NCBI RefSeq assembly: GCF_030643805.1
Contig: NZ_CP094656.1
Coordinates: 3,348,001 to 3,412,000 of the forward strand
Length of the DNA stretch: 64,000 bases
Direction of reading: 5' to 3'
Source: Alkalihalobacillus sp. AL-G
GTDB taxonomy: Bacteria > Bacillota > Bacilli > Bacillales > Fictibacillaceae
The translations under genes were made by a program, and so were the position numbers. Below are positions 57,904-62,816 of the stretch, in pieces. The stretch's first letter is position 1. Each line of letters opens with the position of its first letter. Under the pieces are notes generated by a model that did not search any database, was not told the DNA's origin, and saw nothing but the letters and a program-made list of their open reading frames with translations.

Positions 57904-58095
57904 TTAGCACGTGCACTCGTAATTACTTTTAGAACCAGTTTCCAATAGTGGCTTTTTGGATGTCAATCTTCTGAATAGTTGCTTGATCTTAAACCAAACC
58001 ATCAATTTTTGCTGCTCCTCAACCCTCGGTAACGATTTGACAAATTGTTCTTTTCTGTATTCAACTTCTGCTTCAACGGAATACAAATTAAACAT
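57904..58095 (-). CDS. Small ars-locus protein, 63 aa (unknown)
   Basis: MFNLYSVEAEVEYRKEQFVK onward with a basic middle (KIKQLFRRLTSKKP) and a C-terminal CTC. GGGAGG precedes the ATG. It is the first gene of the minus-strand unit that also contains the Cys-pair peptide, under two ArsR boxes. Not recognised; the CxC end could bind arsenite. Confidence 0.65.
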   Translation of the reverse strand: MFNLYSVEAEVEYRKEQFVKSLPRVEEQQKLMVWFKIKQLFRRLTSKKPLLETGSKSNYECTC

Positions 58096-58113
58096 TTTAC
58101 TTCCTCCCTTTAA

Positions 58114-58129
58114 ATCAATTTATTTTGAT
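58114..58129. promoter_or_regulatory. ArsR-type box B
   Basis: ATCAA-TTTATT-TTGAT, directly downstream of the minus-strand promoter (58137-58165). Confidence 0.8.
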
Positions 58130-58136
58130 TAATTCA

Positions 58137-58165
58137 AGTATATTCCGATCTATTGGTTTTTGCAA
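58137..58165 (-). promoter_or_regulatory. Promoter of the minus-strand ars unit
   Basis: TTGCAA (58160-58165), 17-nt spacer, TATACT (58137-58142) on the minus strand, bracketed by ArsR boxes B and C. Confidence 0.75.
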
Positions 58166-58172
58166 CAGTTTT

Positions 58173-58188
58173 ATCAATTTTTTTTGAT
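58173..58188. promoter_or_regulatory. ArsR-type box C
   Basis: ATCAA-TTTTTT-TTGAT, between the two divergent promoters. Confidence 0.8.
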
Positions 58189-58195
58189 TTAATAA

Positions 58196-58224
58196 TTGCA
58201 TCTTATGAAAACACTGTATATACT
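58196..58224 (+). promoter_or_regulatory. Promoter of arsR (first copy)
   Basis: TTGCAT (58196-58201), 17-nt spacer, TATACT (58219-58224), followed 8 bp later by box D. Confidence 0.75.
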
Positions 58225-58231
58225 ATTATTA

Positions 58232-58247
58232 ATCAAATTTTTTTGAT
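58232..58247. promoter_or_regulatory. ArsR-type box D
   Basis: ATCAA-ATTTTT-TTGAT, just downstream of the arsR promoter and 17 bp before its start codon. Confidence 0.8.
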
Positions 58248-58264
58248 AAGAGGTGATTAAAAAA

Positions 58265-58588
58265 ATGAAGGAAATCGAACTGACCGATGAAACCCTCCCA
58301 CGGACGTTTGAAAAGTATGAAGCTAAATTTAAAGCCATAGCTGATAAAAAGCGCCTTCAAATCATGTACTTACTTACGCAAAAAGGTGAAATCTGTGTTT
58401 GTGACCTTGTAGATATGATTGAGATGCCACAATCCAAATTGTCTTATCACTTAAAAATCCTTCTTGATGCAGAGATCATCACAAAAGAAACCCGTGGAAC
58501 CTGGAGCTACTACAAATTAAATCAAGATGAGGTCAACCACTTACTATCAGAGGAACTTTGTTGTGTATTTAAACCTTCTTGTTGTTGA
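58265..58588 (+). CDS. arsR: ArsR-family repressor (first copy)
   Basis: 107-aa winged-helix metalloregulator. Recognition of As(III) is suggested by EICVCDLVDM (Cys44, Cys46) and by C-terminal Cys in ELCCVFKPSCC. SQLSYHLKIL-type recognition helix PQSKLSYHLKILLD. GAGGTG supports the ATG at 58265. It probably binds boxes A-E and controls both divergent units. Confidence 0.9.
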   Translation: MKEIELTDETLPRTFEKYEAKFKAIADKKRLQIMYLLTQKGEICVCDLVDMIEMPQSKLSYHLKILLDAEIITKETRGTWSYYKLNQDEVNHLLSEELCCVFKPSCC

Positions 58589-58612
58589 GAAGGTTTTCTC
58601 TTTACCTAATTA

Positions 58613-58628
58613 ATCAACTTTTTTTGAT
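58613..58628. promoter_or_regulatory. ArsR-type box E
   Basis: ATCAA-CTTTTT-TTGAT, between arsR and the permease gene, implying separate control of the permease. Confidence 0.8.
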
Positions 58629-58658
58629 GTATAAACTAAAGTGAAAAGGATGATACAA

Positions 58659-59525
58659 ATGTTGCTAGAAACATTTAAAAGCTTTTTATGGATTGCTTTA
58701 GAATTGACGATTCTGTTTGTCGTAATTTCATTCATAATCAGTCTGATCCAAGGCTATATCCCTTACGAAAAAATCGAGAAGAAGCTTGTCGGCACGAATA
58801 AGTTACTCGCTGCTTTCATTGCGTTATCTTTTGCATTCATCACTCCATTCTGTTCTTGCTCGACGATTCCTATTGTCGTCAACATGCTGAAGAAAAAGCT
58901 TCCGTTTGATATCGTTATGATCTTTTTGTTTGCATCACCTGTATTAGATCCAACCATCCTAACAATTATGGGTGTCATCCTCGGATGGAAAGTAACCCTC
59001 ATCTATACAGTCCTAACAGCGTTTTTTTCAACTTTAATTGGATTTGCGTTGGGTGCACTTGGTTTTGAAAGATCTATAAAAAATGTCGTCATGTCTGGTT
59101 ATGATCAAACACATAAAAAATTCAACCTCAAGCTCGCTTTTAAGGAAACGCGCGATTTAATGAAAAGTGTATATCCTTATCTGATCATTGGGGCTGCAGT
59201 AGGGGCTTTGATTCATGGCACTGTTCCAACTGAATGGATTTCAACCGTTTTCGGTAGTGAATCCTGGTGGCTTGTTCCAATTGCCGCAATCATAGGGATC
59301 CCACTTTATACCCGGCTATCAAGTATGATCCCGATTTCGCAGGTTCTGATTGCAAAAGGAGTGGCGCTCGGACCGGTTATGGCTATGATGATTTCATCGG
59401 CTGGTGCAAGTCTTCCTGAGGTTATCTTGCTGAAAACCATCTTTAAAACAGAGCTTGTCATCACTTTTGTTCTTTCGGTCACCATCATGTCAACTATCTC
59501 AGGCTTTATTTTTTATCTTTTATAA
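58659..59525 (+). CDS. arsP: ArsP-like permease
   Basis: 288 aa, about eight helices in two symmetric halves. The motif TPFCSCSTIPIVVNM (Cys65, Cys67) and ASPVLDPTILTIMG define the ArsP/DUF318 permease family, which exports trivalent organoarsenicals. The neighbouring ArsI-like lyase fits an organoarsenic role. Start at 58659 chosen by AAAAGGATG spacing; GTG at 58641 is possible. Confidence 0.82.
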   Translation: MLLETFKSFLWIALELTILFVVISFIISLIQGYIPYEKIEKKLVGTNKLLAAFIALSFAFITPFCSCSTIPIVVNMLKKKLPFDIVMIFLFASPVLDPTILTIMGVILGWKVTLIYTVLTAFFSTLIGFALGALGFERSIKNVVMSGYDQTHKKFNLKLAFKETRDLMKSVYPYLIIGAAVGALIHGTVPTEWISTVFGSESWWLVPIAAIIGIPLYTRLSSMIPISQVLIAKGVALGPVMAMMISSAGASLPEVILLKTIFKTELVITFVLSVTIMSTISGFIFYLL

Positions 59526-59531
59526 AACAAG

Positions 59532-59634
59532 AAGCCGTCATAACAACGATTTGAGCGATTTTCTTCAGTAGACGATCGCTATAAAGCCGTCATAACGACG
59601 ATTTGGGTGATTTACTTTAGTAAACGGTCGCTAT
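59532..59634. repeat. Two tandem 52-bp repeats
   Basis: AAGCCGTCATAACAACGATT... from 59532 and AAGCCGTCATAACGACGATT... from 59584, period 52, about 83% identical, each ending in (C/G)GATCGCTAT or CGGTCGCTAT. Lies between arsP and its terminator. Confidence 0.85.
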
Positions 59635-59636
59635 GT

Positions 59637-59671
59637 AAAGGGACGGAAACACTTAGTGCTCCGTCCCTTTC
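59637..59671. terminator. Terminator shared by arsP and the hesB-like gene
   Basis: Perfect 11-bp stem AAAGGGACGGA/TCCGTCCCTTT with a 12-nt loop, usable from both sides (TTTCTG on plus; CTTTACAT on minus). Confidence 0.8.
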
Positions 59672-59676
59672 TGATT

Positions 59677-59958
59677 TCAACAACATTCATTTTGACCGAG
59701 GAAAACGAGTCCCGGTCCCTGTTCAGTATTCTGAAAATCAATTGTTGTATCCTTCGTGAAATCAACAACACGTTCATCTATTGAAACATTGATTCCATTG
59801 ATTTTTTCTAAAGTGTCATTTTCTTGAGGCTCATCCAGAGCCAATCCCAATTTGGGACCACCTCAGCCCATGCCTGCAAAGTATAATCGAATTCCGTTTG
59901 CGCCATTTTGCTCAATGATTTGTTCGATGGTTTCTTTCGCTTTGTCTGTAATTTCCAC
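59677..59958 (-). CDS. HesB-like Fe-S/scaffold-type selenoprotein (in-frame TGA = Sec32)
   Basis: 93 codons: MEITDKAKETIEQIIEQNGA, GIRLYFAGMG, then TGA at 59863-59865, then GGPKLGLALDEPQENDTLEK and onward to QGPGLVFLGQNECC. The TGA replaces the conserved Cys of the HesB family G-x-G-C-G-G-P motif. The whole downstream frame is intact with family-like sequence, so readthrough as selenocysteine is the simplest reading; HesB-like selenoproteins are known. GTG start with AAGGGAG 6 nt upstream. C-terminal Cys-Cys. Sits between arsP and arsI. A nonsense mutation is the alternative. Confidence 0.75.
59824..59850 (-). promoter_or_regulatory. Candidate bacterial SECIS hairpin
   Basis: 25 nt after the TGA the minus-strand RNA has GGCUC-UGGAU-GAGCC, a perfect 5-bp stem. 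The 5-nt loop has G at its second and third positions, and a UU bulge with further GA/UC and UU/AA pairs lies below it. Loop distance and the early loop G fit the bacterial SECIS rule (16-37 nt). Confidence 0.6.
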
Positions 59959-60068
59959 CCAATTCTCCCTTTCCTATCATCCGTCAAAATATTTTATGTC
60001 TTCTTTATCATATTAGTAATTGCTCGATAAATGTTCAACCGATTTGACAGTTTCCCACTAAATTAACG

Positions 60069-60536
60069 TTATTTTTTTAATGAAGTCAGATCGATCTTGA
60101 CCGGTTGTGGTTCTGGTGGTGCACAGCAGAGAGACAAGTCACGTGCATCCCCTGCCGATTCAAATTCAGAATCGTCCTTCGTGTAAAAGATTTCCCATGC
60201 ATTTCCGTCCGGATCATACACCCAGACCTTATCCTGGACCGCATAGCAACAAGTTGTGTCCATCTCGTCTACAAGTAAAAGGCCAGACTTTCGAAGGCGC
60301 TCCCCCATTTCAAGGACTTCCTCAGTATTATTTACTTGGAACCCTAAATGATTCAAGATACCTTCCTTGTTGAATGGACGCACGTTTAAAGAAAAGTGCA
60401 ATGCAGGTTCTTCCAATTCAAACTTCGCATAATTGTCTTTTACCTTTGTCGGTTCCTGCCCAAAAAAGCTCTTATAAAAGTTCAAGGATTGATCTAAATC
60501 ACTACAATTGACAGCGACATGCATTCGATTGATCAT
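60069..60536 (-). CDS. arsI: ArsI-type C-As lyase (VOC/glyoxalase family)
   Basis: 155-aa vicinal-oxygen-chelate dioxygenase. Metal ligands expected for ArsI are present: His6 (RMHVAVN), His63 (LNHLGF) and Glu115 (NAWEIFYT). Substrate cysteines Cys96-Cys97 (DTTCCYAV) and a C-terminal CC (LSLCCAPPEP) are also seen. Demethylates trivalent organoarsenicals with Fe(II) and O2. Minus-strand unit arsR-arsB-arsC-arsI-hesB. Confidence 0.88.
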   Translation of the reverse strand: MINRMHVAVNCSDLDQSLNFYKSFFGQEPTKVKDNYAKFELEEPALHFSLNVRPFNKEGILNHLGFQVNNTEEVLEMGERLRKSGLLLVDEMDTTCCYAVQDKVWVYDPDGNAWEIFYTKDDSEFESAGDARDLSLCCAPPEPQPVKIDLTSLKK

Positions 60537-60562
60537 TTACTCCCACCCTTTCTATAGGTTGT

Positions 60563-60982
60563 TTATTTCCCTTCGACAGTAAACTTTTTTATTCGATCGC
60601 TAATTTCATCACGTACACGTTGGAAAAATGCCCATTTCTCTTCTTCAGTTCCTTCCGCCTTCGCTGGATCATCAAATCCCCAATGATCGCGTTTTACATG
60701 TGGCGGTGTCATCGGACATTTGTCGTTTGCATCTCCACACAATGTAACAACATAATCGGCTTTATTCAACAATTCCAGATCGATGATATCTGAGGTTTGT
60801 TCGTTAATATCAATATCAACCTCTTTCATCGCTTTAACGGCATTCGGGTTCAGTCCGTGTGCCTCAAGACCGGCTGAGTGAACATCGAACTTGTCTCCGA
60901 GATACTTTTTCCCGAATCCTTCTGCCATTTGACTTCTGCATGAATTGCCTGTACATAGAAAATAAATGATCGGTTTTGCCAT
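60563..60982 (-). CDS. arsC: Arsenate reductase ArsC (thioredoxin-coupled)
   Basis: 139 aa, low-molecular-weight-phosphatase type. P-loop CTGNSCR with Cys10 and Cys15, and resolving Cys82 and Cys89 ([11 protein letters not shown]), numbered as in the pI258 enzyme. Reduces arsenate to arsenite for ArsB. Starts after the 20-bp array. Confidence 0.95.
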
Positions 60983-61020
60983 TGTTTATGCCCCTTTTCT
61001 TGATTGAACATGATCGTAGT

Positions 61021-61159: not shown

Positions 61160-62479
61160 TTATGAAATCAAACGTAACCATAGATACAAGCCTGTCAAAG
61201 TAATGAAAAGTGTTGGGATCGTAAGGATGATCCCCACTTTAAAATAGTAGCCCCACGAAATTTTCACACCTTTCAAAGATAAAACGTGAAGCCATAACAG
61301 TGTGGCAAGGGAGCCAATCGGCGTGATTTTCGGGCCGAGGTCAGAACCGATCACATTCGCATAAATCAGCGCTTCCCTGATTGTACCGCTCGTATCCGTC
61401 CCTTGAATGGCTAAAGCATCAATCATCACAGTCGGCATGTTGTTCATGATCGAGGACAAAATCGCCGCGATGAATCCCATCGAAATCGTTGCAACAAAAA
61501 GACCTTGTTCAGCTGCTGCTTCAATCACTTTAGCAAGTAAATCAGTCAGACCTTCATTTCGCAGTCCGTAAACGACAACATACATCCCAATCGAGAAAAA
61601 GACGATCGCCCATGGAGCACCTTTAATGACCTTACGTGTCGCAACGGCAGAACTCCTTCGTGCCATTACTAAAAAAAAGATGGCAACAATACCTGCGACA
61701 AATGAAACTGGGATTCCGAAAAATTCGCTCGCAAAGTACCCGGTAAGAAGCACAGCGAGAACAAGCCAGGAAAGCCGAAACATGCGATGATCTCTGATCG
61801 CTTCAGCTGGCTTTTTCAACTGTGACATATCATAGCGTAAAGGAATGTCCTTTTTAAAATACAGATAAAGAACAAGAATACTTGCCGCTAATGAGAAAAA
61901 GTTCGGAACAATCATCCGAAACGCATATTCGATGAATCCGATCTCAAATACATCCGCCGAAACAATATTGACCAAGTTACTGACGACCAGCGGAAGAGAA
62001 GTAGTATCTGCGATAAACCCACTAGCCATTATGAACGGCAAAATCATCCGTTCCTTGAAATCCAACGCTCGAACCATCGCGAGAACGATCGGTGTCAGGA
62101 TTAATGCAGCACCATCATTTGCAAAAAAAGCCGCAACGACCGCTCCAAGGATTGTCACATAGACGAACATTTTCAACCCGTTACCTTTTGCCACTCGGGC
62201 CATATGTAGTGCGGCCCATTCGAAAAAGCCAATCTCATCTAAAATCAGCGAAATGATGATGATCGCAATAAAGGCAAGCGTCGCATTCCAGACGATGCCT
62301 GTAACGATGGCGACATCACCAAAGTCAACAACACCGACAAGCAATGCAAGAATTGCCCCGCCGCAGGCTGACCAGCCAATACCGAGGCCTTTTGGCTGCC
62401 AAATGACCAGTATAAGTGTCACTACAAAAATAAATAAAGCCAATAGAACTGATGTCAAACCAATACCTCCACTAATCAC
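61160..62479 (-). CDS. arsB: Arsenite efflux pump ArsB
   Basis: 439-aa, 12-helix arsenite/proton antiporter of the ArsB type (not ACR3): [40 protein letters not shown], and [15 protein letters not shown]. The start overlaps arsR by 8 bp. Exports As(OH)3 made by ArsC. Confidence 0.94.
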
Positions 62480-62816
62480 AACAGATTCGCAAGCCTGCGT
62501 TTTCTAATTGTTTTATTTTTTCATCATAGTCCGGAACATATCCTAAAATGTCCTGAACAATCGGAAATGTTTCGTGTTCAGGGTTCAATGAATAAAAAAT
62601 CCACTGACCTTTACGCCTTTCTTTTACAATTCCAGTATCTCTAAGCTTTCTCAAGTGCTGACTTATGGACGGTTGACTCATCGCTAAAATTTCGACGAGT
62701 TCACATACACAGCATTCCTGATTTTTCAGTAATGCAATAATCGTTAGCCGCGTTTTATCGCCAAGCAACTTAAGCGTTTGAGCAGCCTTATCTATTTCAA
62801 TTGTCGCTTTTTCCAA
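62472..62816 (-). CDS. arsR: ArsR-family repressor (second copy)
   Basis: 114 aa with [25 protein letters not shown] (As-binding Cys35, 36, 38) and a C-terminal CCD. First gene of the arsB-arsC-arsI unit. Its promoter region lacks the ATCAA-N6-TTGAT box, so it is likely specific for another operator. Confidence 0.93.

Follow-up and report, generated by a model that had tools for sequence, protein, structure and literature searches.

Carriers of the IscA type have a C-terminal CGC ligand motif, and ArsD is an arsenic metallochaperone with a Cys triad. In bacteria, the SECIS element is a hairpin located at 16-37 nt, which has a loop of 3-14 nt with a G as its first or second base. The HesB-like selenoproteins form an established family (PMC13188914, PMC9312934, PMC1088965, PMC1794560, PMC5029168), whose TIGR01911-type members have the motif UxGP (PMC13188914), and a 2026 review counts them among the selenoproteins with functions largely uncharacterised (PMC13188914). 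The available parts of these five papers make no mention of an ars setting for HesB-like selenoproteins. HesB-like genes are also described in arsenic resistance operons: orf7 of the ars1 operon of Bacillus sp. CDB3, arsRYCDATorf7orf8, is HesB-like (PMC4562236, PMC5481582), and Exiguobacterium SW-20 has a HesB-like gene in its ars operon (PMC8779447). The texts of these three papers contain no word beginning with "selen". In the Sec-assisted organometallic (SAO) system, SaoC is a Cys-Cys-COOH (seleno)protein in which Sec is a proposed metal ligand (PMC13188914).

The window, which is the whole stretch of 64,000 nucleotides of Alkalihalobacillus sp. AL-G analysed here (contig NZ_CP094656.1, positions 3,348,001 to 3,412,000), contains a candidate HesB-like selenoprotein gene, hesB, at positions 59677-59958 of the minus strand. 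The gene is a GTG-initiated frame of 93 residues, with its start codon at 59958-59956 and its stop codon TGA at 59679-59677, and it has a single in-frame UGA at codon 32 (59865-59863). A frame of 93 codons with one TGA had been reported in a preliminary description of this DNA, which gave no strand, and is borne out on the minus strand. The good ribosome-binding site of that description is also found, as a GGGAG read from the sequence at 59965-59969, 6 nt before the GTG. With U at residue 32, the protein reads VEITDKAKETIEQIIEQNGANGIRLYFAGMGUGGPKLGLALDEPQ...GLVFLGQNECC, which contains the UxGP motif as UGGP at residues 32-35 and ends in Cys-Cys-COOH. Though seemingly broken by a stop codon, the frame most likely encodes a selenium-containing protein, as judged from the sequence. 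The final UGA was also considered as a second Sec codon and was rejected, as 67 of 75 rows have TAA or TAG there and the loop of the hairpin that follows is UAA, three bases with no G among them. Just past the stop codon, at 59637-59670 with no strand assigned, the sequence forms a hairpin of very high stability (-22 kcal/mol, a value reached by 0 of 200 shuffles), which is a possible terminator. The good terminator that had been proposed for the gene is only partly right, because this hairpin has no long U tract and is absent from the terminator scan output.

The Sec machinery, which the preliminary description proposed to search for and whose absence would have refuted its reading, is present in the genome, a single contig of 4,155,898 bases, where selA, selB, selC and selD are all inside one 20-kb stretch (L016). 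The tRNA-Sec scores over the Rfam cut-off and has the anticodon tca in ARAGORN, SelA and SelD score over their cut-offs, and SelB is found as well. SelD (L016:15909-16961) has an in-frame UGA of its own at GGUGCK and is therefore probably a selenoprotein itself; this sequence fits the UxxK motif given for the SelD family (PMC13188914). Between selB and selD (L016:12354-15868; G000:C1:2042353-2045867), there are genes for a glycosyltransferase and a PhnD-type ABC transporter. The glycosyltransferase, whose best profile is NF038229, below cut-off, has a weak likeness to the selenosugar synthase SenB, and the binding protein of the transporter matches TIGR04553, "putative selenate ABC transporter", with 174 bits against a cut-off of 250. 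By these matches, the stretch may be a selenium uptake system.

Alignment position 32 is U in 58 of the 74 rows, window included, and Cys in the other 16, so that codon 32 corresponds, as had been claimed from the window, to the conserved Cys, a metal-site residue of the IscA/HesB fold, and the sequence of the family continues on both sides of the UGA. All seven other genomes of the same genus that were searched have the UGA. Among 149 genomes, including that of strain AL-G, 52 have a strong UGA-bearing match (E <= 1e-12), of which 51 have selB, and 19 have only strong matches that lack the UGA (Cys), of which 2 have selB; this tally is uncorrected for kinship, and for unfetched genes it rests on the stop count. 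The UGA-bearing exception is a genome of the same genus (G006), which is without selB, selA, selD, an over-cut-off tRNA-Sec and the isomerase gene that is adjacent to selB in strain AL-G. As the entire Sec block is missing together with the isomerase, the pattern fits either a gap in the assembly or deletion of the block.

The SECIS-type hairpin GGCUC-UGGAU-GAGCC is located on the minus strand at 59828-59842 and spans 21-35 nt downstream of the UGA. Its loop, UGGAU, begins 25 nt past the UGA and has G at loop positions 2-3, which agrees with the bacterial SECIS rule. This hairpin was already noticed in the preliminary description, and its position holds; in relatives it is under selection. Folded alone, the 37 nt that follow the UGA form the SECIS-type hairpin and a second hairpin with -16.2 kcal/mol (reached by 0 of 200 shuffles), and a 51-nt piece including the UGA folds into another structure with -18.7 kcal/mol (reached by 6 of 200 shuffles). 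Each set of identical downstream windows was entered once, which gives 56 distinct UGA sequences, window included, and the loop of the best hairpin by the bacterial SECIS rule is at 25 nt in 50 of them, at 26 nt in 5 and elsewhere in one (L094). The hairpin equals or exceeds in strength at least 95% of 150 synonymous recodings for 51 of the 56 UGA sequences versus 1 of 16 Cys relatives (Mann-Whitney p 1.7e-8, uncorrected for kinship), and the window hairpin alone is marginal in this comparison (p 0.047, 150 draws). Stem pairs 1-5 are standard in 54-56 of the 56 UGA sequences versus 2-11 of the 16 Cys sequences, and there are paired changes of the stem, for example from U-A to G-C (pair 2) and from C-G to U-A (pair 3), once each. 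An Rfam scan of 58000-61000 with E up to 5 did not recover a SECIS; its four matches, to snoRNA/sRNA families, are sub-threshold.

Fold and ligand residues of the protein—With C in place of U, the protein matches Pfam PF01521 (Fe-S_biosyn/HesB superfamily) with 31.6 bits, over the gathering score of 26.3. Its best NCBI profiles by E-value are TIGR01911 (7.8e-17) and NF038090, and both scores are under the curated cut-offs, with 61.7 versus 66.35 bits for TIGR01911 (HesB_rel_seleno) and 59.4 versus 85 bits for NF038090 (IscA_HesB_Se). These cut-offs are strict, because all ten relatives tested, three of them from outside Bacillales, miss them too. The AlphaFold2 model, built with 42 aligned sequences, has a mean pLDDT of 91.9, which falls to 53 in the last block, at the C-terminal end, where confidence is low. 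Nine PDB entries match the model at E <= 0.001 and the top four are IscA, the best one being E. coli IscA 1r94 (TM 0.80, prob 1.00, E 2.5e-7, 27% identity). Residue 32 is aligned by sequence with position 35 of IscA, Cys35, which is a ligand of IscA. The protein has in common with the IscA/SufA/ErpA carriers the fold, PF01521 and the first ligand position, and it differs from them by the Sec in place of Cys35, by the 27% identity in the fold alignment and by the missing C-terminal C-G-C motif, as its end is NECC. Members of the HesB-like selenoprotein family (TIGR01911) have the same Sec-for-Cys site, while the protein described here is set apart from that family by scores under the curated cut-offs, a short Cys-Cys-COOH tail and the ars setting. 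The exact Cys-Cys-COOH terminus is found in 61 of 74 proteins. SaoC, which likewise ends in Cys-Cys-COOH, and its SAO system belong to different families and have a different gene set, by the description given in the review (PMC13188914). A vicinal Cys follows position 32 in 10 of the 12 ars-linked Cys proteins, a position where most Sec proteins have Gly, and the three Cys plasmid forms that were opened share this vicinal Cys-Cys. The loss of the selenol with a vicinal dithiol in its place would be compatible with a soft ligand of three-fold coordination, for which As(III) is an example.

In the window, arsR, arsB, arsC, arsI and hesB follow each other on the minus strand. The arsR gene (62472-62816; NF033788) is the first of the presumed operon and overlaps arsB (61160-62479; TIGR00935), which encodes an arsenite efflux permease; they are followed by arsC (60563-60982; TIGR02691), a thioredoxin-type arsenate reductase, and by the upstream neighbour of hesB, arsI (60069-60536; NF041414), an ArsI/CadI-type metalloenzyme, all four being over the profile cut-offs. 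An arsP-type permease gene (58641-59525; PF03773, over the gathering score) and a second arsR (58253-58588; NF033788, over cut-off) are on the plus strand, convergent with this row. The profile search therefore recovers the ArsP, ArsI, ArsC and ArsB named from the window before, and adds the two ArsR. A promoter-like match precedes arsR at 62869-62840 on the minus strand, from a scan in which the number of matches is no higher than in shuffles. The ArsR that precedes arsP has the same Cys-Cys-COOH ending as the HesB-like protein.

The preferred explanation, which we hold with good confidence from the sequence, is that hesB, the last gene of the arsR-arsB-arsC-arsI-hesB row, is functional and encodes a selenoprotein, with UGA-32 decoded as Sec and a predicted Sec/Cys/Cys metal-site protein as the product. 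The five genes presumably form one operon, and ArsR would make the expression of hesB follow arsenic. SelB and tRNA-Sec would decode UGA-32 by means of the hairpin 21-35 nt downstream. The IscA/HesB fold would then carry three soft ligands, Sec32 at the place of IscA Cys35 and the Cys92-Cys93-COOH pair that replaces CGC, and this Sec/Cys/Cys site may take arsenic or an Fe-S cluster.

Relatives of hesB are recurrently found among ars genes. A locus is taken as ars-linked when its fetched stretch has at least two of ArsB/C/I/P/A/D, which is the case for 30 of 73 loci (18 Sec and 12 Cys), a value that is no unbiased rate because the loci were picked by similarity to the window protein. The 73 loci consist of 60 fetched from the 84 other matches (E <= 1e-12) and of 15 further loci, minus L061, in which the tblastn match is absent, and L047, which has the same contig as L062. 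Around weaker IscA-type paralogues in 20 of the same genomes, none of the 20 loci is ars-linked (Fisher p 2.3e-4); these controls have 26-35% identity and are assumed to be ordinary A-type carriers from similarity alone, six of their 20 genomes own an ars-linked hesB, and two of the stretches (L132, L135) are short. The ArsA, ArsD, phosphatase, DedA and dipeptidase labels are protein clusters named by eye, and the first three agree with the names in plasmid records.

The arsR-arsB-arsC-arsI-hesB row is present in six of the seven other genomes of the genus (L063-L068) and is eroded in L062 (L062:7370-8060), where arsB, arsC and arsI are decayed remnants and hesB with its UGA is intact, so hesB may work without its neighbours. 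Two genomes of the genus have a second, different hesB copy behind arsB-arsC-arsD-arsA (L069, L070). In other Bacillales, hesB commonly comes after arsR-arsB-arsC-arsD-arsA, in some loci directed by the same row and preceded by a dual-specificity phosphatase gene. In each of the 22 loci with ArsA, its gene is upstream of hesB in the same orientation, and ArsD is a same-strand neighbour of hesB in 19 loci. As ArsI is found in only two of the 22 loci carrying ArsA and ArsD (L069, L113), it is not the common partner. ArsA was rejected as a partner in the genome of strain AL-G, whose sole strong ArsA-family match is a frame of 313 residues located elsewhere, which differs from the type of ~589 residues beside hesB in other genera. 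ArsD, the neighbour in the arsB-C-D-A-hesB rows, is small and has several soft ligands, which makes it a comparison for how the HesB-like protein may work only; the two are from different protein families. Like hesB, the CDB3 orf7 is a HesB-like gene in a long Bacillus ars operon, a likeness drawn by description only; the functional paper on CDB3 ars1 is reportedly Zheng 2013. Plasmids also carry the gene, with hesB matches in 20 records, and the four copies opened are all among ars genes, three in Cys form and one in UGA form, the latter in the ars operon of a Cytobacillus pseudoceanisediminis plasmid (L151:6001-6279).

Other settings are also conserved. Another genus of the family contributes 13 loci, which all have Sec and are away from ars genes, and in eight further loci (L051, L085, L088, L094, L098, L101, L107 and L114), all Sec, the UGA form is behind a dipeptidase-like gene without ars genes. 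Counted over the alignment, the DedA type makes 13 of 74 rows and the dipeptidase type 8 of 74. No ars linkage was detected in 17 loci from other Bacillota with Bacillales ars queries, which could miss diverged genes, and the HesB query itself failed on two of these 17. Because many Sec relatives sit away from ars genes, the basic chemistry of the family is not arsenic-specific; the 13 and 8 non-ars loci being all Sec, selenium is the more widespread trait of the branch, and arsenic is a setting that recurs within Bacillales. In the tree (74 rows, 93 columns, many weak forks), the window protein is in a supported clade (97/97) of eight ars-linked Sec proteins of the same genus. The fewest changes on this one tree are 6 for the ars label and 5 for Sec/Cys, which suggests that ars linkage and Sec/Cys state were each gained or lost repeatedly.

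A dead gene, in which the UGA would be due to simple nonsense mutation or to faulty sequencing, is very improbable. Such a reading has in its favour the formally interrupted frame and the marginal score of the window hairpin by itself, but UGA stands at one alignment column where the remaining rows have Cys, the frame behind it is conserved, and its presence correlates with selB. Conservation of the UGA and selection on the hairpin among relatives show that the arrangement is more than chance. It is also unlikely that the ars linkage is incidental, with hesB hitch-hiking in mobile metal islands and having a general thiol/redox job. The plasmid copies and the DedA and dipeptidase neighbourhoods would be expected from hitch-hiking, yet the ars association appears in several separate branches (at least 6 label changes, with many forks weak) and arsA, wherever present, is upstream on the same strand.

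The preliminary description had proposed a selenolate at the metal site that may help to handle arsenic or Fe-S damage, which fits the predicted site, and its arsenic idea is supported by the ars linkage of HesB-like genes. For arsenic-induced cells, we put at about even chances that the triad binds As(III) or an organoarsenical substrate of ArsI, which it would buffer or pass on to the efflux pump. A broader form is proposed only tentatively: the ars-linked Bacillales HesB proteins would be a branch of the IscA fold that binds arsenic, in which Sec32 (or Cys-Cys in Sec-less lineages) together with the Cys-Cys at the C-terminus makes up a trigonal As(III)/MAs(III) site with a direct As-Se bond, feeding ArsA/ArsB or ArsI, the Se and S versions being interchangeable between Sec-decoding and Sec-less lineages. 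An appreciable minority of the probability goes to the protein carrying iron or an Fe-S cluster and mending arsenic damage. In that case it would be, with a like degree of doubt, an A-type carrier co-induced with the ars genes, which repairs arsenic-damaged Fe-S enzymes or gives Fe(II) to ArsI, arsenic not being its ligand. The IscA fold with Sec at IscA position 35, the 17 other-Bacillota relatives near which ars genes were not found, and the neighbourhood in this genus of ArsI, an Fe(II) enzyme (PMC12607644), argue for a carrier; against it are the terminal CC on a shorter tail in place of the IscA CGC, the scarcity of ArsI in the ArsA/ArsD loci and the IscA-type paralogues, none of whose 20 loci is near ars genes. 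The small probability left by arsenic binding and iron or Fe-S carriage falls to a redox role.

Among the matches listed from the open-licence PMC literature, as far as their texts were available, there is no paper on a HesB-like selenoprotein in an ars operon. Each part is published, and their combination, a HesB-like selenoprotein that recurs in the ars gene rows of Bacillales, seems to be new. This placement gives a testable role to a largely uncharacterised selenoprotein family, links selenium use with arsenic defence in Bacillus relatives, and bears on the unnamed accessory gene of Bacillus ars operons. The coexistence of both forms is a natural Sec-versus-Cys experiment within one resistance system.

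The Cytobacillus UGA copy has no listed gene under it in a gene table that is incomplete, and the matches in three further Cytobacillus plasmid records are likewise without a listed gene. It is plausible that standard annotation misses hesB in the genome of strain AL-G, because the two NCBI models score below cut-off and this Cytobacillus copy has no listed gene. An annotation gap is indicated by the curated models, which are below cut-off on this branch, and by the product name "adhesin", given in 9 of the 20 plasmid records, including the ars-operon Cys copies L149 and L150. On the plasmid Cys HesB-like genes, this name is probably a misannotation.
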